From the NCBI GenBank assembly GCA_917880885.1, contig OU862919.1, positions 48,831,058 to 48,895,057 of the forward strand: 64,000 bases of DNA, in the 5' to 3' direction. This stretch comes from Limnephilus marmoratus. Lineage: Eukaryota; Arthropoda; Insecta; Trichoptera; Limnephilidae. Below are positions 15,691-52,854 of this stretch, one piece after another. The notes beneath the pieces were generated by a model that saw only the letters and a list, made by a program, of their open reading frames with translations, was not told the origin of the DNA and ran no database searches. The position numbers and the translations under genes were made by a program. How positions within the stretch are numbered: the first letter of the stretch is position 1; every line of letters begins with the position of its first letter.

Positions 15691-16201
15691 ATGGATAATT
15701 TAAAATCGTTGATTAACAAACGAGGAGTGTTGAAAGGTAAACTCACGAGATTTGCGGATTCATTAAACGCATTATCAGTTAACAAAATTAAAATTCGCTA
15801 TGCGAGAATTGAAAAAATAATTGATTATTCGAAGAGATACAAGAACAAATCGAAAGTCTTCCGGATTCCAACGAAATTGATAATAATTTGCAAAGGGAGA
15901 ATTTTGAAAATCAATATTATTCAATCTTGGCGACTGCTAAAGGAGCAATTCAGTCTGTAGAGACTCCCAAATTAGAAATCAAGTTACCCAACCTTCAGTT
16001 ACGAGAATTCAACGGAGATCCTAAAAATTGGATTAATTTTCTAGAAACATTTAAGACACTAGTTCATAACAATACTGCCTTAAGCAATGTACAGAAGTTT
16101 TATTATCTGCAATCCTGTTTAAAGGGGAATGCAGCAAAGATAATCGCCAATTTCGAGGTGTCAGACCTGAATTATATATCGGCTTTTGAATTGTTGCAGC
16201 A
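15691..16201 (+). pseudogene. gag: BEL/Pao Gag, N-terminal part (interrupted)
   Basis: The Gag start is chosen at ATG 15691, about 450 bp after the LTR. The first 45 codons read in one frame. A one-base loss near 15824 moves the reading to the frame of 15888-16205, where a PKLEIKLPNLQLREFNGD block of the BEL Gag (DUF1759 region) is clear. The frame then hits the R1-clade insertion at 16202 and resumes at 22513. Gag would assemble virus-like particles. The frameshift and insertion make this copy inactive. Confidence 0.85.
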
Positions 16202-16758
16202 TTGAAGTACCCACCACTGTCCCACCCCGGTATAGGCAACTTATGGTCGCCCCTTCGGAGTTCTCGCAAGAATCTAATTTTTTTGAATAAATGGCTCTAC
16301 TTTTAATGTAACGAATCTGGACCTTCAATGTCCCCTCATACTGTGTTAGGTGGCGGTATGCGGGCGCGCCTACAGGACTGTACTGTAATGGTCAATCTCT
16401 ACAATTCTAAAGCCCATGGAGGTGTCAATGCAAAAGCAGTGAACCTCATGGACAGTCAAACAAGTTATTAGTAACATCAACAAATAAATAAAGTAATCAA
16501 AAATGACAGCAGCCGTCATGAGTAATTAGCTCATGACAGCGGGAGACATGACCATACATAATCCGGCGGGCGGCACCGAGCACTGTACGTTAAAAAGAAG
16601 GAAACAAAAGTAAAATAACATATATACAGATAAGAACCGGTGTCACCGCAACCTGGCTGCCGGCAGTCCCCGAGACAGTGAAGCAGGCTGATTGACCGGC
16701 CTCCCCACAACCGGCAGCGTCGTCCTTAAGCCAGCTAGCCGGTGGTGCCTAGACGACA
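16202..16758 (-). repeat. R1-clade 3' UTR tandem unit, terminal copy
   Basis: 557 bp, starting TTGAAGTACCCACCACTG on the plus strand and directly repeated at 16759-17308. It is the extreme 3' end of the element and abuts the target duplication. Confidence 0.92.
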
Positions 16759-17308
16759 TTGAAGTACCCACCACTGTCCCACCCCGGTATAGGCAACGTA
16801 TGGTCGCCCCTTCGGAGTTCTCACAAGAATCTAATTTTTTGAATAAACGGCTCTACATTTAATGTAACGAATCTAGACCTTCAATGTCCCCTCATACTGT
16901 GTTAGGTGGCGGTATGCGGTCGCGCCTACAGGACTGTACTGTAATGGTCATTTCTACAATTCTAAAGCCCATGGAGGTAGTCACCGCCAAAGCAGTGAGC
17001 CTCGTGGACAGTCAAACAAGTGGTTAGTAACATCGACATAAAAAAGTAAAATGAACAAAATAGACAGCAGCCGTCATGAGTAATCAGCTCATGACAGCGA
17101 AAGACCATACGCAATCCAGCGGGCGGCACCGAGTACTGTTCATAAAAAAAAGCAACAAAAGTAAAATAACATTTGTACAGAGTAGAACTGATGTTACCGC
17201 AAACTGGCTACCGGCGGTCCCCGAGACAGTGAAGGAGGCTGATTGTCCGGCCTCCCGACAACCGGCAGCGTCGTCCGTAAGCCAGCTAGCCGGTGGTGCC
17301 TAGACGAG
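16759..17308 (-). repeat. R1-clade 3' UTR tandem unit, inner copy
   Basis: About 550 bp, clearly the same as 16202-16758 with scattered substitutions and small indels. Together they double the 3' UTR. Confidence 0.92.
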
Positions 17309-17997: not shown

Positions 17998-20900
17998 CTA
18001 ATCAGCGACTCTAAGCTCAGGCCATCTCTCAACCCAGATCCTTGTAAAGTTCCTCAGGCACTCGAAATTCGTCTTGTTCGAAACCAGATCAGTGTTCCAC
18101 ACTGGTCTGATTGGTACGTCCAAACCATCGAGCATTTCCTCTCTTGCGTCCGTCATTATCTCACACTGCCACAGAATGTGCTCCGCCGACTGGTTCGTGC
18201 ACCCGCAGGCGCAGTTGGGGTGAGGGGACAGGGAGAGGGCGTGAAGTCTCCCCCTGAATTCCCCGTGGCCGGATAGAAGCTGGGTGATGTGGTGGTCCAA
18301 CTTGAGAAAGACCCCTTCCATTCTGACTTTAACTGATGGGAAGAAGGAGAAAGTCCATCTTCCCTTATTCGTTCTATCCCAACGGACCTGCCACTCTTGG
18401 AGCGACAGATCCCGCATTTGACGAAGCAGCCCAGGGAGAGTCCCCGGCCCGCCCGGTGTCAGAACAACGCCTAGGTGAGTGGCCGGGGTTCCTCTGGTTA
18501 ATTTCTGCTTAGTGAGGACTTCCCTGATTTCCAGATCGATTGGCAAAATGCCAGCCAAAACGGGTAAAGCGTCCGAAGCAACGGTTCTATACGCACCAGA
18601 GAGTGCCAGCAAGGGGGTTCGTTGGCCTCGCCTGAGAGCTAAGAGAATCAGCGAATTGTCCAGGCGGTGCTCCCACACAGAGGCGGCATACGAGACTTGC
18701 GCCACGTACACGCACCTATATAGCGTTCGCAGAGCCGGATTACGCAATCCCCACTCAGCTGTGGAGAGTCTCCTCAGCTTCAAGAAGAGAGCCTGTGCCT
18801 TGCTGGATACTTCTTTGACGTGAGCCAGAAAAGAGGACGATCGATCTAGAGTAACTCCTAAATATTTCACTGTTTCAAAAAAGCGGATGTTAGAATCTCC
18901 CATTCTGATGGTAGGATTTCTTGCTCTACTGAGAGAGCCCTTCATCAGGAGGCCCTTGGTCTTATGGGGAGCGAAGGTCATCTTGTTTCTTTCACCCCAG
19001 TCCAGGAACATCTGCAAACCTTCACTGCCTTTACTCTCCACTTCCTTTCTGCTGTCCCCAGCGACCAGATACAACTTATCATCAGCGTAGTCGACAGCGA
19101 TACATCCTTCAGGCAAGGGTAACCTGGAGGAGTCGTCAAAGGTGATGTTCCACAGGTCGGGTCCAAGGATGGAGCCCTGCGGGCATCCCATGTCGGCTTC
19201 CCTCTGGATACAAAACTCACCGAAACTGATCGTAATCGTACGATCAGAAAGGTAGTCATCGATGGCTTGGAACAGTAAGTTGGAACACCGCCTGTTTTTC
19301 ACCTTTGTACGTATCATTGCCCACCAGGCGTGATCGAAGGCACCAGTGATATCGAGGAATATTGCAACTACATACCTCTTTGGGCAAGCCTTCACCCATT
19401 CAAGCGCATACGACAGGGCGTGCACCGTGGATTTCCCGGGGACGAAACCGAACTGGAGGTCACTGGCCGGGGACAAGGTTTGACGGAGCCGCTCCCTCAG
19501 TAATTTCTCCAGGATCTTGCCTAAAACGGGAAGCAGCGTTATCGGCCGGTAGGCCTTGATGTCGGTGAGTGGTTTATCGTTCCCCTTAGGTATAATCCGG
19601 AGCACGCCACGCTTCCACTCAGAGGGGAAAACTCCCCTCCTCAAGCACGTGTCCATCACCTGGAAGAGCTCCTCCTTGGCGTGGACCCAAACTTGCTTCG
19701 CTATTACGCCATTGAGCCTGTCATGCCCTGGTGCCTTCTTAGGACCCAAACCCTTAATTATCACATCAATTTCTGCCTTAGTGACTCTAATGAAGTTATC
19801 CTCTTGGGCGAGGACTCTAGGTGGCAGCCGTGACAGATTTCTTATCTGTTTATGGTGGTCACTTTCCCCAATTACTGATTCTACAGGAACTAACTCACCC
19901 AATAGTGTTTCGAGTGTGGAGGCCACATCCACTGTCTCAGCGTTCCTCCCATCTGTTATCCCAATTACTGTTGACAAATATCGGTCAGAACCTTTCCCGG
20001 ATTTTTCAATCGCGCTGTGGATTTCCCACGGGTTGGCGTTACCCACGTTTTTAACCCAATTATGCCAAGCAGCTCGTTTCGCTAGGAGAACAGCCCGTTT
20101 GAAGGCCGACCTGGCAGATCTGAGGCCCGCCTGAAGTGCAACCCTCTCCTCCTCCGTACAGCCGCCACTCCTGGACAGCCCCAGCGCCCTGTAGGCCCTC
20201 TTGTAGGCCCCCTTCAGCGAAGTCAGCTCAGGTGACCACCACGGCGTCCTAATACTAGTCTTTGGGTTTAATCTTCCCAAAGACGAGTTGGCAGCAGATA
20301 CAACCGCCCTATTAAAAAAATTCCCCAAATTATCCGGATCAGTAGCTGCTACGTGGTGAAAATCCCTTAGCGTATCTCGTAGCGCTTCCCCAAAGTTATC
20401 CCAGTTCGCCCTAGTGGTGTTGAAGTTCCAGGAGGATCTTGGAGCTTCAGTTTTATTTACACCAACCGTAAAAGTGATTAACCTATGATCCGAATTTATT
20501 GCGCACTCATGGACTGTCCAATTTGAAATCCTGGTCGCAACAGATCCAGAGCAAAGAGTTAGATCAATGTTGCTCTCACCATGTATGTTCGAAAAGGTAC
20601 AAAAAGAACTCTGTTCATTAATAATGCTAAGACCTTGCGCGGCAATCAGGTCCTCAACGGCGTCTGAACGTTCCGTGCTACGATCACTAGTATCGAACCA
20701 TAATGGTGAGCGTGCGTTAAAGTCACCTCCGATAACTATGTTACGGCCTTTAAGCGCGTTGAGTGCGCGCGTCAGACTCAGGATGTGGGGTCCAACCGGG
20801 TTCCCAAATTTAAAGTAAACTGAGATCAAGAAGATCTCAGTATCGCCAAATCTAATACATACACAGGTTTGGTACTCATCAGAAAAACCAGCCAGAAGGA

Positions 20901-21129
20901 GGGGACTGATCAAGGAGGTGTTGATCAGGACTCCCGCCCCTGGAGAGCGGCCAACTTCGAGTACCGCACCCGGAAAATTAATTGGGGTCTTACCTTCCCA
21001 GGTGTACTGTTCCTGAATGAGCAAAATGTCAATGTTGAGGTCAGACATGACCCTCAGCACCTCCAGCGTGGCCATCCGGGATCTCTGGAGGTTAATCTGA
21101 CCTAGGGAGAGGGGATTAGGACGAGCCAT
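17998..21129 (-). CDS. R1-clade ORF2: APE endonuclease and reverse transcriptase
   Basis: 1043 codons without interruption, the usual length for R1-type ORF2. Residues 1-230 are an AP-endonuclease-like domain with QINLQRSR, an IQEQ glutamate, GGDFNARSPLW and a catalytic SDHR box. The reverse transcriptase spans about residues 420-720. It has YRPITLLPVLGKILEKLL, FLDITGAFDHAWW, GCPQGSILGPDLWN and the catalytic DYADD. The C-terminal third ends with a zinc knuckle beginning CACGC and continuing to H and C (about residues 985-1005). The enzyme nicks the target and primes cDNA synthesis there. All catalytic motifs are present, so this is potentially functional and the best-preserved gene in the window. 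The GCPQGSILGP and DYADD forms favour R1 over Jockey. Confidence 0.95.
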   Translation of the reverse strand: MARPNPLSLGQINLQRSRMATLEVLRVMSDLNIDILLIQEQYTWEGKTPINFPGAVLEVGRSPGAGVLINTSLISPLLLAGFSDEYQTCVCIRFGDTEIFLISVYFKFGNPVGPHILSLTRALNALKGRNIVIGGDFNARSPLWFDTSDRSTERSDAVEDLIAAQGLSIINEQSSFCTFSNIHGESNIDLTLCSGSVATRISNWTVHECAINSDHRLITFTVGVNKTEAPRSSWNFNTTRANWDNFGEALRDTLRDFHHVAATDPDNLGNFFNRAVVSAANSSLGRLNPKTSIRTPWWSPELTSLKGAYKRAYRALGLSRSGGCTEEERVALQAGLRSARSAFKRAVLLAKRAAWHNWVKNVGNANPWEIHSAIEKSGKGSDRYLSTVIGITDGRNAETVDVASTLETLLGELVPVESVIGESDHHKQIRNLSRLPPRVLAQEDNFIRVTKAEIDVIIKGLGPKKAPGHDRLNGVIAKQVWVHAKEELFQVMDTCLRRGVFPSEWKRGVLRIIPKGNDKPLTDIKAYRPITLLPVLGKILEKLLRERLRQTLSPASDLQFGFVPGKSTVHALSYALEWVKACPKRYVVAIFLDITGAFDHAWWAMIRTKVKNRRCSNLLFQAIDDYLSDRTITISFGEFCIQREADMGCPQGSILGPDLWNITFDDSSRLPLPEGCIAVDYADDKLYLVAGDSRKEVESKGSEGLQMFLDWGERNKMTFAPHKTKGLLMKGSLSRARNPTIRMGDSNIRFFETVKYLGVTLDRSSSFLAHVKEVSSKAQALFLKLRRLSTAEWGLRNPALRTLYRCVYVAQVSYAASVWEHRLDNSLILLALRRGQRTPLLALSGAYRTVASDALPVLAGILPIDLEIREVLTKQKLTRGTPATHLGVVLTPGGPGTLPGLLRQMRDLSLQEWQVRWDRTNKGRWTFSFFPSVKVRMEGVFLKLDHHITQLLSGHGEFRGRLHALSLSPHPNCACGCTNQSAEHILWQCEIMTDAREEMLDGLDVPIRPVWNTDLVSNKTNFECLRNFTRIWVERWPELRVAD

Positions 21130-22497
21130 AATCAGTCATACGGAAGGCTGCTTCCACTGCTGCTTTTTGGGCCGGGCAGTCCCTATCACCCGTCGGGTGA
21201 TCCGCCGGCTTCTTAAAGCGCGTACAAGTAGCGCAGACAGCGGGATGTGCCTTCTTGGGGCAAGTCTCAAGGTCGTGCCCCAAAGCGGCGCAGTGGCGGC
21301 ACGATACTTGGTCTTGAGAGCAACTCTTCGATATGTGACCATATTGGTGACACTTGAAGCAACGAATGGCTCCTGTATAATCCCGTACGCGGCAAGCAGT
21401 CCAGCCAAGGAAGCACATCCCGCTGTCCAGTAGTACCTTTCTGGCGGCCGGATGGCACGTCAGAACCATATTCATGGTCGGATTATCCCTCTTCCCAAAG
21501 AGGGAGACCCGCCTCATCGTACGAAGATGGTCTTCCATACTCAGGGTTGTCTGCCCATCAAGGTTGTTGCTGTATATCTCCGTGAATAGGGCTTGGTCCG
21601 ATGCTGGTTCCCCCTTCGGAACATTGTACACGACGATTTTAGGCAAACGTCCCAATGGGGTGACCATTTTAAGGCCGCTGGCTGCCAGTTTGGATCCAGC
21701 CTTTAAGATATTATCTAGGTCCTTCTTCCCTTTCGCTTGAAGGGCCATGCCTGCGCCTTTAATCTTCCTAGTCCGTACGATTTGAAAGTCATCTACCCTT
21801 GGGTTGATGACCTTTTCGAGGTCTTTCTGGGTACCTTCCGATGTTTTCCCTTCAGGAGTATCCGGATAGACGAGAATAGTCAATGGTTTAGGAGGGATGG
21901 GGCGTTCATAACCATTAATTAAGACTTTCTTTGAGTTCGGCAAGCCGGCAGCAGCACTTGCGTAGGATCTCAATTGAGGTTCCTGGATTACTGGTGGGCG
22001 CACCTTAATAACAGAGTCCAGCTTCTGGTTCAAGCTGGACTGGGCGTTAAGCATTTGGTCGATAGTGGAGCTCTTGGTGGTCATAGTATTTAGATCCAGC
22101 ATCAAGTTAGTAATATCATTCATTAAGTCGTCCAAAATAACGTTGAGGGCACTCTTGTCAGTCTTATTCAATTTGTTCGTACCGTCCATGACAATCATAC
22201 GTATTTTATGGCACTTCTCCATAGCTGGTATCACCCTTTTTGAGGATTCTACAAGACTCTTCAGGCTATTAGGAGAGTCAAGCCGTTGTCTCTTCTTACT
22301 TCCTTGGATGGGGGTTGGGGGGTGAATGCCGATAATGGCTGCCCCACTGGTGCCAGGTATTGGTACGCCTGTTGTCTCGACGTGTATAACGCGCTCAACC
22401 TCCATTTCCGAGTCCGTATCAGAACCAAGGTCGGTAGTTTTGACTTTGTCGGTAGTCTTTCTTAGCTTCCTTTTACTCTTGGGAGGATCCCCCTCGG
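21116..22497 (-). CDS. R1-clade ORF1 (Gag-like, CCHC knuckles)
   Basis: RNA-binding ORF1 protein of the R1-clade element. The open frame extends upstream into antisense BEL DNA to 22648, but element sequence starts at 22499. The first in-element Met is at 22405, so either translation starts there or the element is 5'-truncated. The N-terminal part is Lys/Ser rich and acidic. A helical middle follows. The C-terminus carries two CX2CX4HX4C knuckles (CFKCHQYGHISKSC and CRHCAALGHDLETC) and a third CATC...HPTGDRDC cluster, as usual in R1/Jockey ORF1. The stop at 21116-21118 overlaps the ORF2 start by 14 bases, which implies reinitiation or frameshifting to make ORF2. No internal stop. Confidence 0.88.
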
Positions 22498-22512
22498 TCA
22501 ATTGTTGCAGCA

Positions 22513-24752
22513 GAGGTTTGCAAATTTGCGAACTACCGTACAAAGACACATCCAAGCTCTGTTTCAACCTAAAGAGATGAAACATGAGGATCCAGTAGCC
22601 ATGCGTTATCTGATTGATGAAACCAATGCAAATCTCAAAGCGTTGCAAAATTTAGGCTTGAAAATCGAACAATGGGATGCTTTAATTATATACGTAATTT
22701 CTAATAAATTGGATGCAAGTTCTAGAAAGCATTGGGAACAAACCCCATTGCAGGATGAGCTACCTACATTACACGAATTTCTTAAATGTTTGACCTCGCG
22801 TGCGCAAGTTTTGGAATTAATGTTAAATTCAGATTCGAAAAAAATTCCTACCTACCCGAAAGCAAATGGTAGCAACAATAATCCCAAAAAGGAATCGGTA
22901 TTTTTAGCTGCTACCCACAATAATTGTATTTGTTGTAATGACAAAGGGCATAAAATATATTTTTGTAAAAAAAATTTAAAATTAAATTCAGGAGAAAGAG
23001 CCAACGCAATAAGGAGGTACCGTGCCTGCTTCAAATGTTTGAGGTTAGGACATACGGCCCCATATTGCAAAATTAATTTAAAATGCAAGCATTGTGATAG
23101 CGAGAGCCACAATACGTTATTGCACAGGGAGATGCATCCGAGCGATGACTCCATGAATAAAGGTGAAGATCACCCCGGAGGTGACTGCCAAATGGATGCT
23201 GAACGAGTTTCAGTATCAAACCATTCAGCCTTAGCGAAGGCTGAAAAAACAATTTTATTGTCGACTGCTATCAATGGGGTGGTAGGTCACAATAATAAAG
23301 TGCATGAGGCAAGAGTCCTAATTGACTCTGGAGCTCAAGCCAATTTTATGTGCGAAAGGTTCGCAATGAAGTTAAATTTGAGATGCGAAAATATAAACAA
23401 GCCTGTGTTAGGTATACACAACAATGTTACCCATATAAAGAAGCGTGTTGCGATAAAAATGAAATCTCTGAGGACAAATTATAATCAAAATATCACTTGT
23501 CTAATATTGCAGGAAATAACCACAAACCTACCCCAAGCAACAGTGGCCAGAAAAGATTTTAAGCTGCCGCCGGGATTACAAATGGCGGACCCAAATTTCA
23601 ACGTAGCGGCGCCTATTGATATCCTGTTAGGCGCTGAGAGCTTTTGGGATATACTACAAGATGATCGGCTGAGATTGGATACCGGACCTACTCTTCAGAG
23701 GACTGAATTAGGCTGGGTTATATCGGGCCCGATCAACATTCATCAGAAAAAAAGGCCAGTACCGCAATTTTGTAGTTTATCAATAAACACATTATCTAAT
23801 CAAATAGAAAAATTTTGGAAAATGGAGGAGGTGAATCCTGCGAGATTTCAAAATCACGAGGAGAAGGCGTGTGAAGCGGATTTCGTCGCCACGCACTCTA
23901 GAGAGAGCGATGGTAGATACGTTGTAAGTCTGCCGCGCCGCCCGTGTGTGAGTCAACTTGGTGACTCGTTAAACACAGCGGAAAAAAGATTTAAGAACCT
24001 AGAAAAGAAATTTTTAATAAATCCTGAATTGAAATTGCAATATGTACAATTTATGCAAGAATATGAACAACTAGGTCATATGGAGTTATGTGATAAATGG
24101 AGAGGGGATGAGCAATCCTATTTTTTGCCGCATCACGCGGTCATTAAAGAAGCTAGCACCACGACGAAGGTGCGTGTAGTGTTTGATGGTTCGGCAAAGA
24201 CGTCGACCGGAATATCCCTGAACGATGCTCTGATGGTGGGAGCTGTCATTCAAAAGGACTTATACAGCCATTTATTACGTTTCAGAATACATCGATACGT
24301 CATGACTGCGGACATCGAAAAAATGTACCGTCAAATCAACGTATGCGCAGAGGATCGCAGCCTTCAGAAGATTGTATGGCGCGAATCACAAGAAGAGAAA
24401 CTCCGCCATTACAAATTGAAGACCGTTAAATATGGGCTGGGACCTTCCTCCTTCCTAGCAACGAGATGTCTTCGACAAATCGGTATGGATAATCAAGTTA
24501 ATTTCCCAGTAGCAAGTCAAGTCATAGAAAATGATTTTTATATGGACGATCTATTGACTGGAGGGGATGACTTGGAAGTTTGTTTCAAGTTAAAGAAGCA
24601 AATAAGTGATATCTTGCTGTCCGCAGGGATGACCCTGAGGAAGTGGAGATCAAATATTTTGGAATTGTCATCTGGGCGGAGCCAAGGTGAAATTGCCAAA
24701 CAGGGCAATTGTGAAAAAATGATCACTGCCAATTCCAAGAATGAAAAATACT
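22513..24752 (+). pseudogene. pol: BEL/Pao Gag C-terminus, protease and reverse transcriptase
   Basis: Continues the Gag frame after the R1-clade insertion. The DUF1759-type Gag region runs to about 22840. Two zinc-binding segments follow (CICCNDKGHKIYFC and CFKCLRLGHTAPYC, with CKHCDSESH after). The aspartic protease has VLIDSGAQANFM near 23318-23353. The RT has RVVFDGSAKT, TADIEKMYRQI and the catalytic FYMDD near 24535-24549. This order (Gag, PR, RT) is the Pao/BEL polyprotein. The frame ends at a stop at 24758-24760, while the adjacent reading frame carries on from about 24750, showing a small indel. RT motifs look intact. Confidence 0.93.
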
Positions 24753-26622
24753 TGAATTAATTTGGAACAATGAATTAGATTACCTGTCATATGAAATTAC
24801 AAAGCCGTCGGGTAAAACTAAGATTAAGCGTCAATTATTATTGTGCATAGCTTCCACCTTTGATCCAACGCAGTGGCGGCAAGTATCATCATCAGTAAAT
24901 GCAGCGGATATACTGTCCCGAGGTACCACAGCTGAAAGGTTAACCAAAGCTTCAATATGGTGGAAGGGGCCAAGCTGGTTGACGGAAGATGTCAGCACTT
25001 GGTCAGTATCCAAGATGTCATGTTTGGATCCCCCGGAAATAAAAAGTAAAAATGTACTACTGGTAACGGATACTCAAGAATGGGATATTTTCGAAAAATT
25101 CTCATCGCTAACCAAATTAAAAAGAGTAATCGCTCAAGCGTTAAGATTTATAAATAATTGTCGCAACCCTAAGGATAAAACGTATGGCAATTTAACTGTC
25201 TCCGAGCTGGAAGCAGCTTTAAAATGTCTACTGAAATCATCGCAAGAACATTCCTTCAAAAGAGAATTGAAGGACCTAAAGAAGCATGGGTTAGTAAACA
25301 AAAACAGTAGATTGAAAGCTCTCAATCCCTGTTTAATGGAAGGTTTAATTTGTGCAAGTGGACGATTAAAATTAGCTACTTATTTATCGCATCATCAAAG
25401 GCACCCTGTAATATTACCACCGTCACATAAACTAACTGAACTTATTATACGTAATTATCATTATGAACATTTACATGCAGGTCCCCAAGCGCTGTTATCG
25501 GAAATACGCTTGAAATATTGGCCGATATTTGGGAGAAACACTGTTAAGCGTATCCTACATAAGTGTGTTGTATGTTTTAGATACCGACCTCAGGTTTGCC
25601 GGCAGATCATGGGAGACCTTCCAGTTGAGAGAATCACTCCCAGTCTACCGTTCTCTGTCACAGGGGTCGACTTTGCCGGACCGATAGACACGAAGGCTGG
25701 AGCGCTGAGAAAATCTCCGCTCATTAAATCGTATCTTTGCATATTTGTTTGTTTTTCTACCAAAGCGGTTCATTTGGAACTCGTAACAGATTTGTCAAGC
25801 GATGCTTTTTTAAATTGTTTAAAGAGGTTCATTGCCCGTAGGGGTCAACCGGAAAAAATATTTTCTGACAATGCAACCACTTTCAGAGGAGCTTCCAATA
25901 AGCTCAAAGAACTATATGCCAGTCTAAGATTGAACAATGACAAAATCCATAGGTTTTTAGCTGATAAGGGAATATCTTGGAGTTTCATACCGCCTAGGAC
26001 GCCGAACCACGGGGGGCTGTGGGAGGCCGCCGTCAAGTCCACCAAGTTTCATTTATATCGAATTACTAAAAATAACCCATTGCAGTTTGAATTATTATAT
26101 ACTTTGCTTTGTCAGATAGAGGCTTGTTTGAACTCCCGTCCCTTAACTTCCCTGTCTGATGACGTAGACGACCTTCTCCTTCTAACCCCCAACCATTTCC
26201 TCATGGGCAGGGATGCTTCGGTTATTCCCGAGTTGGATGTCCGCGAGCACCCGGAGAACAGACTAAGCAAATATCAAAAATTAAACGCTCTAATTCAAAA
26301 TTTCTGGTTCAGATGGAAACGAGATTACCTTGCTGAGCTGCAAAAACGGACCAAATGGCAGGCCAACAACCAAAAGGCCATAAAGAAGGACGATCTGGTA
26401 ATCCTGATGGAAGACAATCTGCCTCCTGCATTATGGAAGATGGCGCGCATATTAACTACTCATCCAGGCCCGGATGGAGTAGTGAGGGTAGTTACCCTCA
26501 AAACAGCACAATGCACTTTTGTGAGACCCATCACAAAAATATGTTTGATGCCAATAGAATCAAACTTGGATCCAAATTTCCCGACCCGGCAAACCACTGA
26601 CCTTCCCAAGGTCACAGCCTAA
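24753..26622 (+). pseudogene. pol: BEL/Pao Pol C-terminal part: RT tail and integrase
   Basis: Shifted frame from about 24750. It reads up to an IASTFDP motif, then jumps at about 24867 directly to WRQVSSSVNAADILSRGT. In relatives those two motifs are separated by the connection and RNase H domains, so roughly 200 or more codons have been deleted. The integrase zinc-binding H2C2 region follows (NYHYEHLHAG...CVVCFRY). The catalytic core has TGVDFAGPI, a SDN box (IFSDNATTFRG) and NHGGLWEAAVKS, giving D, D and E. The C-terminal DUF5641 region ends at 26620. The integrase itself appears complete. Confidence 0.92.
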
Positions 26623-35676: not shown

Positions 35677-36228
35677 ACTATATTACGGCATTCAATCAAG
35701 TTATGTTTAATTACAAAACTTTGGTGGATAATTTATTATTATAAATAATCCACCAAATTATTATAAATCATTACCAAACTTTGGTGGATGGATTATTATA
35801 AATAATTATTATATTATTTATAATAATCCATCCACCATAATTATTATATTATTTATAATAATCCATCCACCAAAATTTGGTAATGATTTATAATAATTTG
35901 GTGGATTATTTATAATAATAAATTATCCACCAAAGTTTTGTAATTAAACATAACTTGATTGACTGCCGTAATATAGTATCCACCAAAGTTTGGTAATGAT
36001 TTATAATAATTTGGTGGATTATTTATAATAATAAATTATCCACCAAAGTTTTGTAATTAAACATAACTTGATTGACTGCCGTAATATAGTATTAATAATA
36101 TAGTATTACGGCAGTCAATCAAGTTATGTTTAATTACAAAACTTTGGTGGATAATTTATTATTATAAATAATCCACCAAATTATTATAAATCATTACCAA
36201 ACTTTGGTGGATGGATTATTATAAATAT
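35677..36228. repeat. Forward-reverse-reverse-forward foldback array
   Basis: A unit of about 130 bp, from TACTATATTACGGC through two TTTGGTGGAT blocks, occurs as F (35677-35807), R (35850-35979), R (35980-36092, shortened) and F (36098-36226). Copies are almost identical. The unit comes from the R4/Dong coding region (compare 36950-37000) plus a small TTTGGTGGAT palindrome. Confidence 0.9.
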
Positions 36229-40647: not shown

Positions 40648-42004
40648 CTAGAGAAATGGGCTATCGATGAAATTGTTCCAAATTTTGAAAGACAAAATAG
40701 CAAGACTTGCTTTCCGTCTAGTTTCTAGACTCACAGAGTCAGTTTCCTCAAGTAAGTCAATATGGTGCATGAACCTTGGATAGGTTTCATGCTTCCGCAT
40801 ATAAACATACCTGAGGAATTTCTTCTGGATTTGCTCTAACATATCAATGTACTTCTGGTGGTACGGTGCCCAAACATCGCTCGCATACTCCAGCTTGCTT
40901 CTCAGTATGCCATCAAATAACGCTAGCATAGCTTCTTGGTTATCAAACTGCTTACAAGTCCTTATGATGAACCCAAGAAGTTTGTAGCAAGACTGAGTGA
41001 GCTGCGATATATGGCAAGAGAATGTCAGTTCGGGATCAAAGACGACACCAAGATCCTTCACGGATTTTACACGTGATAACGTTTCGCATTTTATTTTATA
41101 ATCGTAAACTATAATGTTTTTACAACGAGTGAAGGACATTGTGACACATTTCTTTGTATTAAAATCTAATTTGTTAGCCAACGACCATTCAGATAATGCA
41201 TCTAGATCAGTTTGCATTTTAAAGCAATCTTGTTGGCAGCTTATTTCCATCATAATTTTAAGGTCATCAGCAAATAGTAGACATTTGCCGTTCTTAACAT
41301 AGTTTTGGATGTCATCTATAAGTATTAAAAACAACATAGGTCCGAGGTTAGACCCTTGAGGAATTCCAGGTTGCGCTTGGAAATTTTTTGAATTATGTCC
41401 ATTTACCGAAACAAATTGGCTTCTGGATTTTAAATACGATGAGAAAAAGTTCAGTGTTGGTAGATCGAAGCCTATTTTAAACATTTTCCTCAAAAGTATA
41501 TCATGGTTAACACGGTCAAATGCTTTGGCAAAGTTGGTGTAAACTACATCTGTTTGGTGCCTCGAGTCTAAACTGGTGGCTACCAACCGCGAAAAATTAA
41601 GAAGATTTGTGATTGTTGATTTCTTTGGAAGGAAACCGTGTTGATTTTCACCAATGAATGGCGCAATCAGGTGACTTAATTTATCACAAATCAATTTTTC
41701 AAAAAGTTTGGGCAGCGCTGATAATACAGCTACCGGTCTGTAGTTTTTGACGTCTGTCTTACCTCCAGCCTTGAAAATAGGACTGACTCTGGTCAGTTTC
41801 CATATTTGGGGGAACGTAGAAGTCAAAATACTAGAGTTAAATATATAACAAAGGGCTTCACTCAGGGCCGTAGCTAGAGTTGAATTTAAGATAGGGCAGC
41901 GGTAATTACAGGTAGGGCGCAAGTAAAATGATCTGATGTGGGTCGGGCGGGGGAGGGGGCGGGGGCTCTGGGCGGCACTTTTAAGGGGCAGCAAAATTTC
42001 ACAA

Positions 42005-43868: not shown

Positions 43869-44263
43869 GCTTCACTTATCATTGGTGCTATGCTAATGAT
43901 AATACTGGAAGGAATTCCATCCGGTCCTATAGCCTTGTCTGTCTTCAGCTTACGGCTTAAGGCTTCTATCTCTTTCGGATTAGTTAATCCAAGAGATATG
44001 TCACCTAAGTTCCACGGAATTTCTGTTTTCGTAAATTCCTTACTGAGATCCGGGGTTTTACTATCATATACAGACCGAAAGTAGTCTGCGAACATCTGAA
44101 AAATAGATTCTGAATCTGTTATAAATTCGTCTCCATTCTTCAGGCCATTATGCGACCTGGAGTTTGCTTTCTGTATTTTATGAAATCCCTGAAACATTTG
44201 ACATCGCCTTTAATCCCGTCCTGAATTCTTTTTAAATATTACTGTTTAGTAACGGCAATGTCT

Positions 44264-44719
44264 TTTTTGAGCTCTACAAACTTTTATTTTGGTACACACT
44301 CAAAAATTTCTGAACATCTAAGGGCACGGATGCCTAAAAATCTAAACGAAGCATTTCAAATAGCACTAGAAGAAGAAAGATTAATGTCACTTCTTAATAG
44401 TACCCAGAGATTTAACTTAAAACATTGTAAACATTGCAATAAAGATGGACATACAAGTGTAAATTGTTATAAAAGAAATAATAAAAATCCAAATAAAGTG
44501 TATAACTTTATACCACGCAATAAGACTTTTGATAAAAAGAAAAACCTTATCTTTCCTGAATGTTCATTTTGTAAAAAAAAGGGACATCTAATAGACAATT
44601 GTTTCTTGGAAGATCCAAGTAAGAAAATCAATTTTAGAAGAGGAACTCCCTCAAACTCTCATGCGATCAATCATTTAAACTCTTGCGGATCCACGTCGTG
44701 CATCGCGACGCTGGAATAG
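44264..44719 (+). pseudogene. gag: Gypsy/errantivirus-like Gag C-terminus
   Basis: Resumes Gag after the Jockey/CR1 insertion, with a ISEHLRARMP block and an EEER stretch. Two CX2CX4HX4C nucleocapsid knuckles follow (CKHCNKDGHTSVNC near 44430 and CSFCKKKGHLIDNC near 44560). The frame stops at 44717-44719, and protease begins in another frame at about 44736. It packages genomic RNA in relatives. Split and not functional. Confidence 0.85.
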
Positions 44720-44735
44720 AGAACATGACCGACCG

Positions 44736-45137
44736 ATGCCAAACCAAATATTTCAACTAACTAACCCTACTAATCCCTATGTACAAGATGGTTATGATAT
44801 GTACTATAAAATATGTGTAGTGGAAATTAATAGAGAAAGTTTATTAAACCTGCCGTTTGTTAAAATACCGTTTGGTAATAATAAAAAATGTAGTCTCTTA
44901 ATAGACACAGGTGCGGCAATATCACTTATAAAAAGAAATATTCTCTATAAAAATAGTGCTCGTGAAATAAACATAAATAATAAACTAAAAGTTCAAGGAA
45001 TCGGAGAAACCGAGTCCGCCTGCAAAACAGACGGAACCATTGAACTTAAATTTCATGAAAATATAAATCACGTTTTTCACGTTATATCCAACATCAACGT
45101 AGAATATGATGGGATATTAGGAAATGATGAAAAATAA
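44736..45137 (+). pseudogene. pol: Gypsy/errantivirus-like protease
   Basis: Retropepsin-type aspartic protease with a LLIDTGAAISLI active-site motif near 44894-44929, ending with an YDGILGNDE block, as in Ty3/gypsy Pol. The frame stops at 45135, while the following codons to 45410 continue in shifted frames. The catalytic Asp is present. Confidence 0.85.
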
Positions 45138-45409
45138 AACTAAAATTAATTATGAAACAAATCAATTAATTCTTTTAAATAAAATAACAATTGACGTGCA
45201 TAACAGAATTGTTCTATACACGCTTCAACCAAGATCAGAGACATTTCTGAAAGTCAAAGTAAAAAAATAAAGATATCAAAGAAGGTATTTTATTAGACTT
45301 TGAAGTAATTAAAGGAGTGAAATTTTCTAACACACTCACTAATGTAGTCGAAGATGGGAGAGCATTAAATCGATATTAAATACAACAGAAAAAAACTATT
45401 AAGATTCAT

Positions 45410-46377
45410 ATGCTAGAAATAACTCTTTCCCCATTCGACTTGCCACAATCTATTTGTGCTATAACTGAACAAAAAATTATAAACCCTGGGCGTGTAGATT
45501 CAATAAAAAATCTAATTGGAACAAATCATCTTAACAATGAAGAATTAAAATCGTTGATAAAAACATGCGAACAATATGCTGATATATTCTTTATGGAAGG
45601 CGATGACCTTAACGCAACAAACGCGATAAAACATAAAATTGCGACCACAAATAACATTCCAATATTTACCAAAACTTATCGTTTCCCGGAAATACACAAA
45701 CAAGAGGTTAACCGACAAATTGATAAGATGTTAAAACAAAAAATATTTAGACCTTCTAATGGTCCTTATTCGTCACCTATATGGGTGGTCCCAAAAAAAT
45801 GGACGTAAGTAACGAAAGGAAGTGGAGGATAGTCATTGACTACAAAAAATCAAATGATGTCACAATTGGAGACGCATATCCCGTACCTAATATAATTTAA
45901 ATATTAGATCAGCTAGGAAACTCTAAATACTTTTCAGTATTAGATTTAGCTAATGGATTCTTTCAAATAAAGGTGGAAGAACAATATAGTGATAAAACAG
46001 CATTTACTGTCCCATCAAGTCATTATCGATATGAAAGAATGCTCTTCGGATTAAAAAACAGCCCTGCAACTTTTCAAAAATTAATGGACATTGTGTTATC
46101 AGGATTACAAGGAGTAAACTGCTTTGTATATCTAGACGATATAGTTATCTATGATAATTCTTTAGAAGATCATGATATAAAACTGAAATCGATATTCTCA
46201 AAATTAAGGGAATACAATCTAAAAATTCAACCAGATAAGTGCGAATTTCTTCAAAAGGAAGTTACCTATCCTGGACACATAATCACTGATCAAGGAGTTA
46301 GTCCAAACCCCGAGAAGATCAAAACTGTATCAGATTCCCAGCACCTAGAAACCCCAAAGAAGTCAAACAATTCTTAG
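45410..46377 (+). pseudogene. pol: Gypsy/errantivirus-like reverse transcriptase
   Basis: N-terminal RT region at 45410-45808 (PSNGPYSSPIWVVPKK), a frame break near 45800, then the palm: WRIVIDYKK, an in-frame TAA near 45898, FSVLDLANGFFQI, LFGLKNSPATFQKLM and the catalytic FVYLDDIVIY near 46120. It then ends at another shift near 46377. At least two frame breaks and one stop make it inactive, although all active-site residues remain. Confidence 0.9.
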
Positions 46378-47017
46378 GACTGGTAGGATACTATAGAAAA
46401 TTTATAGATGACTTTGCTAAGATCTCTAAACCTTTAACATCACTTCTAAAAAAGACATTAATTTTGACTGGACAGAAAATCACCAAACGCATTCGAAAAT
46501 TGGTAAAATAAACTAATAACAGCACCTGTATTACAATAAGTACTCAGACTTTTCTAAACCGTTTGTTTTGACCGCAGACGATTCCAACCATGCGATAGCC
46601 GGAATATTATCACAAGGAGAAATCGGAAAAGATTTACCTATTTGTTACGTATCTAGAACACTAAACTCAGCAGAAGGAAATTATAATACCACAGAAAAGG
46701 AATTATTGGCTGTTGTATGGTTGGTGAATCACTTTCGACCATATATTTATGGAAGAACATTCATCATAGTAACTGACCACAAACCATTATTAACTTGGTT
46801 ATTTAATGCGAAAGATCCAGGTTCAAAATTAGTTAGATGGAGATTAAAATTAGAAGAATATTCCCATGAAATTCAATACAAACCAGAAGTATTCAATTCA
46901 AATGCTGATTGCTTTTCACGCATACCAGTAAACACGTATACAACGAAGTTAGATATGACGTACAAAACCTTCTTAGAAAAGCATAACAAATTAGCTTTAG
47001 ATGATGTAATAAATTAA
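46378..47017 (+). pseudogene. pol: Gypsy/errantivirus-like RT connection and RNase H
   Basis: The connection region near 46380-46420 (GYYRKFIDDFAKISKPL) is followed by a shift. RNase H at 46568-47017 has TADDSNHAIAGILSQ, YVSRTLNSAEGNYNTTEKE and a FIIVTDHKPLLTW block. It removes template RNA in relatives. Catalytic acidic positions appear present. Confidence 0.88.
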
Positions 47018-47276
47018 CGAGTATGACGACAACTTTTTAAAATCAAAGGATAAACATATCGCATACCTGACATCAATTGACCTTGATGACTGTGTACCTT
47101 ATTGTTCTGATATTATTCATCAGTCCAATGACCAAGAAGCTTTCAAGATAAGCAACCACTAACTTTATCAGACAAAAACCGCAAAAGGAAAAACTAAAAT
47201 TTACTTTTATATTTTTATAAATGTAAACCACTATGATAAACCATCATATCCTGATGTATTTATCGCTTTTAAGAAT
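47018..47276 (+). other. Linker between RNase H and integrase
   Basis: Frames are broken here. It corresponds to the spacer region of gypsy Pol. Confidence 0.5.
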
Positions 47277-47797
47277 TTGAAATCTAAATTGATTAATAAA
47301 AAAATAAAAGAATTTTCATTATCGGACTTAACTGATTTATTTAACCACATAAACTGTGACAAACTGAAACAAATGTTGTCATACATACGAGTATTTCATA
47401 AATCAGATATAATAATCAACATGTATAGGAATAAAATCCAGAATGCTGAAGTCAATGATATCCCTAGAATACTCTTTGAGAATCATGACTCACCATTAAC
47501 AGCAGGACATTTAGGATTCCATAAAATGCATAATCGCATTAGGAACCAATATACCTGGAAAAATATGAAAAATTTATTGAAGATTATATAAACATTGTTC
47601 CCGATGTCAAATAATACGGCACCCATGATAATAACATTAACATCTAGAGAACCTTTTGAAAGACTAACTCTAGATATAGTAGGTCCGTTACCTGAAACAA
47701 AAGATGGAAACAAATTCATACTTATATTTCAAGATGACTTGACCAAATTCAGTCAAGCTTATGCAATTAAAAATGCAACTGCAAAAGAAACAGCTAA

Positions 47798-48740
47798 CAC
47801 ATATATGTTTTTAAGAGCGGAGACGGTTTACATATATATAGTTCCCGTGAGCCCTTAAGCCATAGACTCATTGTGCTATCTCCTATTTTACCTCATTCCT
47901 TTGACAACCCAGTCCCTTTTATAAAGTTCACCAGGATTGTCATTGGAAATGAAGTTATGTCTAATTCTGGTTCGACAATGTGTCTTCCCAGGTCTCATTT
48001 CCCCTCTTCACTCCTCCTTAGTTCCCCTAAGGCTCCACGGTGGAGAGTTCACCTCCCCTTGGTTCCCTAAAGGCCCCACAAGGGAAGAGTCCACTCCACC
48101 TTGGTTCCCTAAAGGCCCCACAAGGGAAGAGTCCACTCCACCTTGGTTCCCCATGGGCCCCAGGAGGGAAGAGGACTTTATCTCTCCTCGTCACTCCTCC
48201 TTGGTTCCCCTAAAGGCCCCACAGGGGAAGAGTTGACAGAGATGGCCTCATTTCTCCTCTTCACTCCTAAATGGTTTCCTGAAGGCCCCACATGGTTCCA
48301 CAAAGGCCCTGAACTGGAAGAGTGCCCTTCCCCTTGGTTCCCTGAAGGCCTCACCAAGGGAAGATTTCATGGAGGTGGCCTCAGCTCACCTATCCATGGT
48401 TTCTCCTCTTGGTTCCTCCTACTTGCCCCAGGAAGGAAGTCCACAGAGGTGGCCTCAGCACTCCTAGGTTCCCAAAAGGCCCCTAGTTTTCGAATGGTTC
48501 AATTTTTTGTCCCATGAGTTACCAGGGTAATAGAAGGTCCACTCCAGCAGAGCCCCGATTGCTGGAGTAAGGTCTAGATACTCCGAGATGCGACCTTGTT
48601 TCTCGGAGGCACCGTTTGTGACACTGTTCCCCAGGACATTCAGCCTGAGGACGGTAGCTCACACCTTGGCTTGGGATGGCTATTGCAGGTTTGTGTTTCC
48701 ACTCCCTCAGCGATGGGTTCGCCACACTCCCTACGCTGAG
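47798..48740 (-). mobile_element. Composite VNTR retroposon (family D), copy 1
   Basis: 943 bp, flanked by AACAGCTAA at 47789-47797 and 48741-48749. Read on the minus strand it has a unique head (about 48740-48490), a block of diverged 40-55 bp tandem units (about 48490-48010), a unique tail (about 48010-47830) and an A-rich end. No coding; frames across the VNTR are open by composition. The same architecture occurs at 49879-50868. Confidence 0.85.
48010..48490 (-). repeat. VNTR block of family D, copy 1
   Basis: Around ten units with a TTGGTTCCCTAAAGGCCCCA core followed by CAAGGGAAGAG, interspersed with CTCCTCTTCACTCC words on the plus strand. Units vary in length and sequence. Confidence 0.88.
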
Positions 48741-49047
48741 AACAGCTAATAACTTCATAACTTTTGTCTCATATTTTGGTATACCAAAATCGATATTAAC
48801 AGATCAAGGACAAAATTTTGTATCATCACTTCTCACCAAAGTGACTAAATTATTAAATGCCAAACACAGGACTTTAACCCCCCATCACCCTATGACTAAT
48901 GGAGCCATAGAGAGGAGCCATGCTACTTTGAAAGATTACCTTAAACATTATGTGAATCAAGATCATACTGATTGGGATAAATATTTGAATCTCACTAGGA
49001 TTAGTTATAATTCCAACATTCACTCTATAACAAAGTTCACCCCTTAA

Positions 49048-49084
49048 AACCATATCATGAAAGTAAATAAACAATTTCTTTCAG
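49048..49084 (+). promoter_or_regulatory. Possible env splice-acceptor region
   Basis: A pyrimidine run and AG (TTTCTTTCAG, AG at 49083-49084) lie just before the env-like frame. Errantiviral env is made from a spliced RNA, so this may be its acceptor. Position-based inference only. Confidence 0.3.
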
Positions 49085-49878
49085 ATGGATTGCCACATTA
49101 CTTGTAATACCTACACAGGGCAACCACATCGAGGTTATTAAAAATGGTAGTGGATTATTATATGATACTCTTGGAACAGCAAAAATCTACAGCGACTACT
49201 GGACCTTAGTAACATTCCAAGATTCTTCGAAACTGATACCTCATCATATAAAAATAATGGAAGTATATGAAAGAACTAACACTGCTTGTATAAAAATAGT
49301 TATACATGAATTGGGAAATCATTGTAAAACATCGCTTTCATCAATAAATTCGGAACTAAATGATATAGATTTCAAATTAGGCGCGATAACTCACTTAATT
49401 CGAAATTCAAACCCAGAAGAAAACCTTGCAGTAAAACGAGGATGGTTTGACGGAATTGGACATATATTTAAAACCATATTTGGTACATTAGACTCGAAAG
49501 ATGCTACATATTACGATGAAGCAATCTCAAAAGTAATTAAAGACGACAACCATATTGTCCATGTTAATAGATCAAACACAAATAGTAAAATCAACTATTA
49601 TCAACTTTAACAATACTGTTAACAAATTCAATACGAAAGAACTTCTATTGAACAGAAATCTGCCAAAAATCCAAGAATTTCTGAAGAATGTTCAAGAAGC
49701 TAACGAGAGAACGGAAGCAAACATTATTCTAATAAGTCAAATAAACCTATTGCGAGATGTGACTGCGAACTTAAGAGTTGAAAATATAATTAACTCTATC
49801 ATGTTCAGCAAAAACAACACACTGTATCCAGGACTAATAACTCCAACAAGGAAGTATAAAGAGTTGAATAAGAATATT

Positions 49879-50868
49879 ATTATTTTTTTTTTAAATAATC
49901 GGAGATGGTTTACATATATATATATAGTTCCCGTGAGCACTTATGCCATAAACCCATTGTACTATCTCCCATTTTACCTCATTCCTTTGACAGTAACCCA
50001 GTCCCTTTCATAAAGTTCACTAGGATTGTCATTGGAAATGAAGCTATATCTTCTGGTTCGACAATGTGTCTTCCCAGGTCTCATTTCCCCTCTTCACTCC
50101 TCCTTGGTTCCCTGAAGGCCCCACGACGGAAGAGGGCTTCATCTCTCCTCTCCACTCCTTAGTTCCCCGAAGGTTCCACGACGGAGAGTCCACCTCCCCT
50201 TGGTTCCCTAAAGGCCCCACAAGGGAAGAGTTCACTCCACCTTGGTTCCCCGAGGGCCCCAGGAGGGAAGAGAACTTCATCTCTCCTCCTTGGTTCCTTA
50301 AAGGCCCCACAGAGGAAGAGTTCACCAAGTTCGTTTCTCCTCTTCACTCCTGCATGGTTCCTCGAAGGCCCTCGAAGGGAAGAGGACATCATCTCTCCAC
50401 TTCACTCCTCCTAGGTTCCACAAAGGCCCCGCGCTGGAAGGGTGCCCTTCCCCTTGGCTCCTTGAAGGCCCCACAAGGGAAGAGTTCATGGAGGTGGCCT
50501 CAGCTCACCTCTCCACGGTTTCTCCTCCTGGTTCCTCCTACGGCCCCAGTAAGGAAATCCACAGAGGTGGCCTCAGCACTCCTAGGTTCCCAAAAGGTCC
50601 CTAGTTTTCGAATGGTCCAATTTTTTTTGTCCCACGAGTTACCAGGGAAATAGAAGGTCCACTCCAGCAGAGCCCTGAATGCTGGAGTGGACCTGGAGTG
50701 AGGTCTAAATACTCCGAGATGCGACTCGTTTCTCGGAGACACCGTTGGTGACACTGTTCCCCAGGACATTCAGCCTGAGCACGGTAGCTCACACCTTGGC
50801 TTGGGATGGCTATTGCAGGTTTGTGTTTCCACTCCCTGAGCGATGGGTTCGCCATACTCCCTACGCTT
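49879..50868 (-). mobile_element. Composite VNTR retroposon (family D), copy 2
   Basis: 990 bp. Flanks AATAAGAATATT (49867-49878) and AATAAGAACATT (50869-50880) are a 12-bp duplication with one change. On the minus strand: head with AAGCCAAGGTGTGAGCTACC, VNTR, tail with ATATATGTAAACC, then an A-rich end (T10 at about 49882-49892 on the plus strand). The element sits in env. Confidence 0.87.
50095..50610 (-). repeat. VNTR block of family D, copy 2
   Basis: Ten or so units with GGTTCCYYRAAGGCCCCAC on the plus strand. Order and number of units differ from copy 1, showing expansion or contraction. The 195-codon open frame across it is not a gene. Confidence 0.88.
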
Positions 50869-51062
50869 AATAAGAACATTAAGTATCAAACACAAGGAAG
50901 ACAATTACCAGCTCCCTTGACACATAATATACACATTATCATAGAAACCGCAACTTTGACTTCATACTATATAAAACACCAAGTGGTAATTATTATCTCG
51001 ATTCCGTTAACGCAGATACAAGAGTATAATCTTTATAAAGTTATACCTTTACCAATACCGTA

Positions 51063-52854
51063 CAGGACCGTAGCCAGAGTTGAATTTAAGATAGGGCAGC
51101 GGTAATTACAGGTAGGGCGCAAGGAAAAATGTAACTTGATCTGATCTGGTGAATCGATTTTCGTCGTACATGTGTAAGGCAATACTTAATTGGATGATCA
51201 AAACATTTAGTTATTTAACAATGATAAAGGATTACCTTGTGTTCTTTCACCACGTAGATAATAAGTATTTGTACACAAGGTAATTCTTGATCATTGCTAA
51301 CAATGAACTTCAGAAAAGTAGCGGCAGCATCAATGGCTTTTCATTTATGATTTATATTAGATACCAAACATAATTTGAAAATACAGAATAAAAACAAAAT
51401 TAAAAATAAGAAAAAGTCCTTCCTTAAAACAATCGAATTCTTCGATTCCACATATCATTAAAAATATGAAGTACTTCATTTAGATCAACTGACTTAGTTT
51501 TTTTCTTTTCAAAGGCTGGAAACACCGTGCCTGCCATTCTTCCGTGACCCATTGATAGCCTATGAGGTCTATTGATTGCAATCAATGTTGAAAACATAGA
51601 TTTGCACACAGCAGTGCTGCAGCCTATTGTCGCCGCAGATGCAAAAAGTTCATACATATCTCTAAACGCCTCTCTCTGCCTGAACAAATCTTGCATTGTG
51701 CTTACGTTTTATCCTCGCGACGACTCAAATAAGCTTTGACTACAGGAGCCTCTTCTAGAGATAGAATTGTAAGATCTGAAAAATTTGTTGAAATCGTGAA
51801 TTGGAGATAAATAAATTACAGGCAGCAGAAGTTTTGTTTAAGTTTTTTTAAACTTACCAAAATTTTTCAAAGGTACCATTTTGTCTACAACCAACTCAAC
51901 GAGACTCACTATAGAATTCAGAAGATTGTCGTTGTCGGAAAACCTTCTTTGTAATTCAGCAATTAGTATGTCCAACGTTTCGAAATACTCAGATTTAAAG
52001 GACTGAGTGTTCTGATCTTCTATATTTTGTCTTTCTGACGAATACGAAGTCATAATCATCCATCCGATTTGATTTTTTGACTTGTCTCTTTTGCGCCTGG
52101 GCCCTACTTTCGGAATTTTCACTTGTATATTGATTAGCTTTTTCTAAAATGTTATGATTTAGTGTTTAAATGTTTGATTAGTTTAGTTAAAGGAAACTGA
52201 TCCAGTGTTTCTTTGTGTTATTATCGATTGCCTTGAGTTTTTAATTTTTCTAAATTCGTTAATGTGTCTGCTTATGAGAATTTTTATAATGTTTCAAATA
52301 ATTTATTGGGATAACGAGTTAATGGAGTAGGTCAGTTGGTCACGAGTTAGTAGAGTGCCAGATAGACAAATGGCCTTGAACTTCCTTTAAAAAATATCGG
52401 GTCGTTTTTCGTAGTTAAGTTGATGACACTGATACAAACCGTTTAGTACGAAGAAGGCCCGAAGATATCGATCTAGGGATTGGTTTATTTATGACTCAAC
52501 CGTTTAATAGCATCCCCAAACTGTTTGGGAATTCCCCGTAAGCAGTGTACACAATGCGCGCACCACTTACACTAACCACTACTTACTTCAATTCCATCTA
52601 TGTGCAGAATAAAGAATTAGAATGATATGATTCCTTGGTTAATTCAAAGTTGTTTAGTTAGATGTCACTAATAGGTAGTATTTTTTTTCAATCATATCAA
52701 TCTATGAACAAACAGTTTACTAGTATATTATCATAGTCGATGATATTTCTTAAAGTAGGACATTTAAGTATTTATTATATTTCTTAGTATTTTAAGGTAG
52801 GGCATTTCCCCATAATGCCCCCCCCCCCCTCCCCCCCCCGTAGCTACGGCCATG
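51063..52854 (-). mobile_element. hAT element family H, copy 2, with transposase remains
   Basis: 1792 bp, start CAGGACCGTAGCC, end GTAGCTACGGCCATG. Flanks ATACCGTA (51055-51062) and CTACCGCA (52855-52862) match at 6 of 8. The first 50 bp are almost identical to copy 1 at 41863. Transposase debris lies on the minus strand. Confidence 0.85.
51424..52122 (-). pseudogene. hAT transposase remnant (family H)
   Basis: Two minus-strand blocks. 52122-51838 has a YFETLDILIAELQRRF segment of the RNase H-fold insertion region. 51696-51424 has GCSTAVCKSMFSTLIAINRP and RRIRLF, the C-terminal hAT dimerisation region. The order is correct, but the catalytic DDE core is deleted and the two blocks are in different frames separated by non-coding DNA. 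This identifies family H as hAT; the other copy is non-autonomous. Confidence 0.78.

Follow-up and report, generated by a model that had tools for sequence, protein, structure and literature searches.

Evidence for a young, high-copy retroposon family with a VNTR core and SVA-like architecture in the caddisfly Limnephilus marmoratus

Why does a degenerate provirus of Limnephilus marmoratus carry two segments built to the same plan, about 2 kb apart and in one orientation? The initial annotation of the window (the whole 64-kb stretch of DNA that was analysed) read them as an SVA-like composite retroposon mobilised by a LINE, and kept a local segmental duplication or satellite as its null. Our analysis indicates that they very probably belong to a family of non-autonomous non-LTR retroposons that is young and present in high copy number. 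The element is ~0.96 kb long, consists of a head, a VNTR core, a tail and an ATTATT(T)-poly(A) end, and is very probably mobilised by a LINE. The features of the locus, including the target site duplications (TSDs), are the following, in window coordinates.

44258-51100, plus strand: degenerate gypsy/errantivirus-like provirus, host of both insertions (from open frames; extent approximate)
47789-47797, no strand: TSD of copy A, low-coordinate side, AACAGCTAA, 9 bp
47798-47817, minus strand: 3' terminal stretch of copy A, 20 nt, weakly A-rich, probably decayed
47818-47989, minus strand: unique tail of copy A, sense end CTCCG (from alignment and landmarks)
47990-48477, minus strand: VNTR core of copy A, 488 bp, GC-rich units of ~42 bp
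48478-48737, minus strand: unique head of copy A, sense start AGCGTAGGG
48738-48740, minus strand: 3 extra bases at the head/TSD junction of copy A
48741-48749, no strand: TSD of copy A, high-coordinate side
49867-49879, no strand: TSD of copy B, low-coordinate side, 13 bp, one mismatch to its partner
49880-49899, minus strand: 3' ATTATTT and A-rich tail of copy B
49900-50075, minus strand: unique tail of copy B (from alignment and landmarks)
50076-50595, minus strand: VNTR core of copy B, 520 bp
50596-50867, minus strand: unique head of copy B (from alignment and landmarks)
50868, minus strand: 1 extra base at the head/TSD junction of copy B
50869-50881, no strand: TSD of copy B, high-coordinate side

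Copies A (47818-48737) and B (49900-50867) share one layout on the minus strand. In the sense direction, the head (260 bp in A, 272 bp in B) is followed by the core (488 and 520 bp), the unique tail (172 and 176 bp) and a terminal stretch of 20 nt. Both copies start with AGCGTAGGG, and the unique tail ends in CTCCG. BLASTN aligns them end to end, core included, at 83% identity; over aligned bases the identity is 90.3%, a difference of 9.7%. The core consists in both of GC-rich units with a period of ~42 bp, whose number and order are not the same in A and B, as had been annotated for this pair. The alignment and the repeat period confirm the annotated order of head, GC-rich units and tail, and the head, put at about 250 bp, measures ~265 bp. 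The proposed A-rich end shows well in copy B, where the terminal 20 nt are ATTATTT followed by A's; in copy A it is weak. The intervals first given for the two copies, 47798-48740 and 49879-50868, correspond to the sequence enclosed by each TSD pair, with an accuracy of one base. The 9-bp TSD of copy A has no mismatch and was correctly called; the one given as 12 bp for copy B is in fact 13 bp with one mismatch. Random flank pairs scored equally well or better in 38/3000 (A) and 31/3000 (B) draws from the provirus, and in 11/3000 (A) and 5/3000 (B) draws from the whole window. Each window TSD taken alone is moderately significant and suggestive; it is the genome-wide copies that settle retroposition.

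The domains around the two copies support the annotation of a single provirus, with integrase and env, hit twice about 2 kb apart in the same orientation. When the pieces were scanned separately, copy A was found between an integrase zinc-finger piece on its left and an rve piece (profile positions 58-102) on its right; the 75-aa piece directly to its left had no family match in the profile scan. Copy B is flanked by matches to the env-like Baculo_F profile, at positions 82-168 on the left and 264-327 on the right, and the 107-aa piece between the Baculo_F pieces is without a Baculo_F match. That profile coverage resumes across copy B fits a gene split by the insertion. Because their TSDs and their divergence from the young copies differ, the two insertions look independent and of different age. 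At 51215-51300 lies an inverted repeat of 28 bp with a 30-nt loop, 89% complementary; mir-876 matches there below threshold on both strands, and the repeat is perhaps a hairpin or a small MITE.

Does the element exist elsewhere in the genome? The assembly searched holds 1,629,871,801 bases in 67 contigs. With copy B as query there were 2840 first-look candidates, and all 40 that were scored match, spread over 21 contigs; once the window copy itself is set aside, 38 of the 39 scored copies are near full length, at 92-94% identity. Copy A gave 3264 candidates, of which 40 were scored, yielding 55 matching pieces. One 22-mer of the head occurs 677 times without mismatch and one 22-mer of the tail 398 times, with 0 occurrences for the reversed controls. 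The majority sequence has 961 bases, in line with an element length of ~0.96 kb. Most fetched copies have a common 5' start and end in CTCCG-ATTATT(T)-poly(A), with few exceptions (e.g., L030 and L044), and 0-5 extra bases stand between the TSD and the head at the 5' junction.

A first sample comprised 39 further copies, the best matches to copy B, and is biased to the subfamily and length of that copy. A TSD (score of at least 8) was found in 30 of the 38 copies scored, and in 8 of 300 controls with swapped flanks; L047, whose 3' end is missing, was left out. Of these 30 TSDs, 22 are without mismatch and 27 measure 11-13 bp, and across the fetched copies most lengths fall at 10-13 bp. A second sample was chosen against the best-match bias. 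It contained 20 tail-pattern loci, the first listed on C1-C2 minus the already fetched C1:76214497 (two of them, L053 and L054, overlap), and 10 head-pattern loci chosen on C1 for the absence of an exact tail 22-mer. The pattern is part of this element at all 20 tail-pattern loci (19 distinct) and all 10 head-pattern loci. After 7 of the 30 loci were dropped for absence of the head or the 3' end, TSDs were found in 19/23 copies, versus 5/506 swapped pairs. Copies below the TSD threshold number 8/38 in the first sample and 4/23 in the second. The genome search that the initial annotation had called for has thus revealed many dispersed copies with their own TSDs and A-rich tails.

The second sample also informs on truncation. 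Among the 19 distinct tail loci, 14 reach to within 5 nt of the 5' end, and the other five start later, at positions 11, 42, 253, 347 and 704. Judged by eye, the 5'-truncated copies L050 (from 11) and L059 (from 253) have kept their TSD, as probably has L053; the truncated L065 and L067 show none. Full length is the rule in this sample and truncation the exception. At the position shared by L053 and L054 (C1, ~36.752 Mb), a second tail fragment of 206 bp, 100% identical to the majority, lies 133 bp downstream of the copy, an arrangement that places two exact tail matches 338 bp apart.

Insertions do not fall on random sites. The target site is T|WA in 21 of 30 cases, versus 48 of 300 simulated insertions; WA alone accounts for 28/30 observed and 125/300 simulated sites, and A occurs at -3 (three bases upstream) in 60% of observed sites versus 22% of simulated ones. 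The boundary rule extends the TSD into the A tail, so that A is barred at -1 and favoured after the site; the 300 simulated insertions, at random flank sites, used the same tails and the same rule. On this basis of 30 sites, the T|WA preference is real beyond the effect of the boundary rule, from which the motif could in part stem.

In the sampled copies the core is nearly constant in length. It could be measured in 64 of 71 rows, and in 52 of these it has 520-539 bp, mostly 524-525; seven copies lie between 464 and 641 bp, four reach 881-889 bp, and one core of 862 bp belongs to L054, which overlaps L053 and probably owes this value to the adjacent second tail. The copy-to-copy variation in VNTR length that had been anticipated therefore holds weakly, most copies being of one length. 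Five long copies (the four above and L061) have an identical junction, from position 534 to position 174, and five adjacent match pairs in the copy A genome search have the corresponding layout. The simplest reading is that the long class goes back to a single duplication of the 174-534 block, spread by source copies. In a tree of heads and tails (61 of 71 copies entered, L071 was dropped, 60 were used), the topology is star-like and the long-core copies are not grouped. The family has a central GC-rich VNTR with inherited repeat arrays.

How old is the family? The 39 copies differ from each other by 2.0% on average, and 28 of them by 3-9 substitutions from the 961-base majority. The mean distance from these copies is 4.2% for copy B and 9.0% for copy A, the 39 having been chosen by likeness to B. 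The family thus seems to have been active both over a long time and recently. The insertions of A and B are probably not of one date, copy A having probably entered the provirus earlier than copy B.

What kind of RNA could give rise to such copies? Rfam has no family at gathering score anywhere in the 64-kb window; at E up to 5, mir-4904 matches weakly inside the tail of copy A (E 4.3), which we take as chance, and in three genome copies no family appears even at E up to 10. Neither 7SL nor any other SRP RNA was matched in these searches of the window and the three copies, and in five loci ARAGORN predicts no tRNA. These results support the annotated head without tRNA, 5S or 7SL boxes. The sense strand of the majority has TTTT at position 265. 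Since TTTT tends to stop polymerase III and the element has no polymerase III gene relative in these searches, the element is probably transcribed by polymerase II, with its promoter located in the head. The majority sequence has neither AATAAA nor ATTAAA, and for this reason the poly(A) may be templated. A coding core was considered and rejected: the longest plus-strand frames, of 124 and 195 aa, are unlike between the copies, and the minus-strand frames are interrupted. In a protein search with the 195-aa frame, none of 258 candidates scored as a match with E up to 1. Compared with shuffled sequences, the head folds with a z of -3.4 in copy B and -1.8 in copy A (13/200 shuffles equally good), and the tail of copy B with a z of -3.0. 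Across 60 heads, 48 of 4614 pair cells are broken and 1 has a double change, so that covariation lends no support to the head fold. Exact-pattern scans of viral and prokaryote genome contigs and BLASTN against plasmids and phages, collections not expected to hold insect DNA, found nothing. A DNA transposon or Helitron was also rejected: the copies have their own TSDs and an A tail, and no inverted repeat of at least 20 nt joins their ends.

The rival explanations differ in the source they propose for the copies. The null of the initial annotation, a local segmental duplication or satellite, would account for the spacing of 2 kb between the two copies and for their common orientation. It is virtually out of the question: the TSDs and the divergence of the two copies differ, the copies scored with copy B lie on 21 contigs, and dispersed copies carrying their own TSDs refute it. 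We regard as unlikely, though less so than the other rivals, that the element is an internal-deletion derivative of an autonomous LINE, with the head as 5' UTR, the tail as 3' UTR and the VNTR as a leftover minisatellite. A LINE transcript would give copies with one fixed 5' start, some of them 5'-truncated, and with a 3' end of the poly(A) type, as here; and L058 (3058-5031), whose head runs nearly straight into the last 28 nt, indicates that internal loss can be tolerated. In this copy the core and most of the tail are absent and a transposon with terminal inverted repeats splits the copy; its outer 12-bp TSD and poly(A) are intact. Yet at each of the 20 tail (19 distinct) and 10 head loci, which represent 30 of 1075 pattern hits, the pattern belongs to this element, and no convincing similarity joins it to 12 loci of a Jockey-like LINE or to the rest of the window, where BLASTN found nothing beyond chance level, tail included. 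With 30 of the 1075 hits read, a rare autonomous relative may yet exist.

There are two further alternatives. A polymerase III SINE with a cryptic promoter in the head, its middle expanded by a minisatellite, would be compatible with the head size, the poly(A), the TSDs and the high copy number. It is quite improbable given the Rfam results (in the window no family reaches its gathering score, and three copies lack any match up to E = 10), ARAGORN hits in 0/5 loci and the sense TTTT at 265; for a SINE derived from tRNA, 5S or 7SL, the same observations led to rejection. Even less probable is that a host gene for a non-coding RNA, itself containing a repeat region, was retroposed en masse. Such processed pseudogenes would have one 5' start, poly(A) and TSDs, as seen here. 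The copy number of over 600, the divergence in several classes and the sublineage that carries a duplicated block speak instead for sources inside the family itself, and the analysis, aimed at the element, brought up no parent gene.

A LINE-mobilised non-autonomous retroposon family remains our preferred reading, and the annotated LINE-mediated retroposition is borne out by many copies, independent TSDs, poly(A) and 5' truncation. The copies have a common start, a common A-tailed 3' end, individual TSDs, a preferred site and some 5' truncation. Target-primed reverse transcription by a LINE that accepts poly(A) is an established process, and the present family could use it as follows. One source copy, or a few, would give rise to RNA, perhaps through RNA polymerase II acting at a promoter within the head, a step that we propose with less assurance than the others. 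The reverse transcriptase/endonuclease of a host LINE would then pick up the RNA via its poly(A) end and insert it by target-primed reverse transcription. The core would be copied together with its source; changes in repeat number would be occasional and would then spread as new source lineages, as may have happened with the duplicated 174-534 block. Copies A and B would have entered an already resident provirus independently, A probably before B.

Which LINE could provide the machinery? The window contains at 40648-41994 a LINE that, from reading, we take to be of the Jockey clade. A search with this LINE gave 99,426 first-look candidates; 94 were scored, and 12 loci were read. Our leading candidate for the helper, possible if doubtful, is a Jockey-type LINE like this one. 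It resembles the retroposon in being young and abundant with an A-rich 3' end, and differs in coding for a reverse transcriptase and in having a 3' region that is not common to both: its end is A/AAT-rich, unlike that of the retroposon. Comparison of the retroposon with the 12 loci gave only short chance-level matches, with neither the 3' sequence nor that flanking the reverse transcriptase in common, and in this one LINE family examined we found no partner with the same 3' end or head. Other elements were seen in the window. Two long open frames, of 1043 and 510 aa, occupy 17998-22648 on the minus strand and are presumably ORF2 and ORF1 of an R1-clade LINE; they abut what we take, from reading, to be a BEL/Pao-like polyprotein (22502-26622, plus strand). 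A direct tandem duplication of ~560 bp, at 89% identity, covers 16200-17307. Just beyond a LINE-like ORF, 35865-36092 holds two tandem units of 113 bp, 99% alike, AT-rich and palindromic in look.

How does the family compare with known elements? Ordinary insect SINEs are non-coding, have poly(A) and TSDs and reach high copy numbers. The caddisfly element resembles them in its poly(A), TSDs, copy number and lack of visible coding capacity; it differs in its length of ~1 kb, in its VNTR core and in a head where no tRNA, 5S or 7SL relative was found. An insect VNTR composite retroposon was not found in the open-licence literature searched, and an unnamed entry in Repbase or Dfam is possible. Caddisfly transposable element studies describe SINEs as a minor class next to a large unclassified fraction (PMC8881205, PMC13045387); in Limnephilidae genomes the unclassified repeats stand at 26.02-33.79% (PMC13045387). 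The present family might give a name to part of these unclassified repeats.

The closest parallel is found in primates. SVA and its relatives end in poly(A), as the caddisfly family does, and the SVA family has a CCCTCT hexamer repeat at its 5' end; read directly, the 5' end of the caddisfly element lacks this hexamer and has AGCGTAGGG instead. The Alu-like (7SL-derived) 5' region and the SINE-R of SVA were not found either, the host is an insect and the core is nearly fixed in length in the sampled copies. The initial label "SVA-like" is therefore apt for the architecture; it does not extend to an Alu-like part, to the hexamer or to a provirus-derived tail, for which there is no evidence. PMC4432496 calls the VNTR composite retrotransposons (SVA/LAVA/PVA/FVA) specific to hominoid primates and reports a lower mobilisation of a human SVA once its VNTR is deleted. 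In the same paper, these elements are non-autonomous, with TSDs, a central GC-rich VNTR of 30-50 bp units and subfamily-specific arrays (PMC4432496), all of which have their likeness here; the subfamily-specific arrays resemble the long class with its shared junction. We suggest tentatively, and while leaning slightly to the contrary, that a VNTR composite retroposon arose in a caddisfly independently of primates, with SVA-like unit size, layout and arrays, that it was active until very recently or still is, and that RNAs parasitising LINE machinery can arrive repeatedly at a GC-rich tandem-repeat core as a solution. If so, the resemblance to SVA in unit size, layout and inherited arrays would mark the GC-rich tandem core as such a solution, and an unrelated insect family of the same layout would offer a second independent case in which to ask what the repeat core does. 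The caddisfly element is no member of the SVA family; it is a separately built element with an SVA-like architecture.
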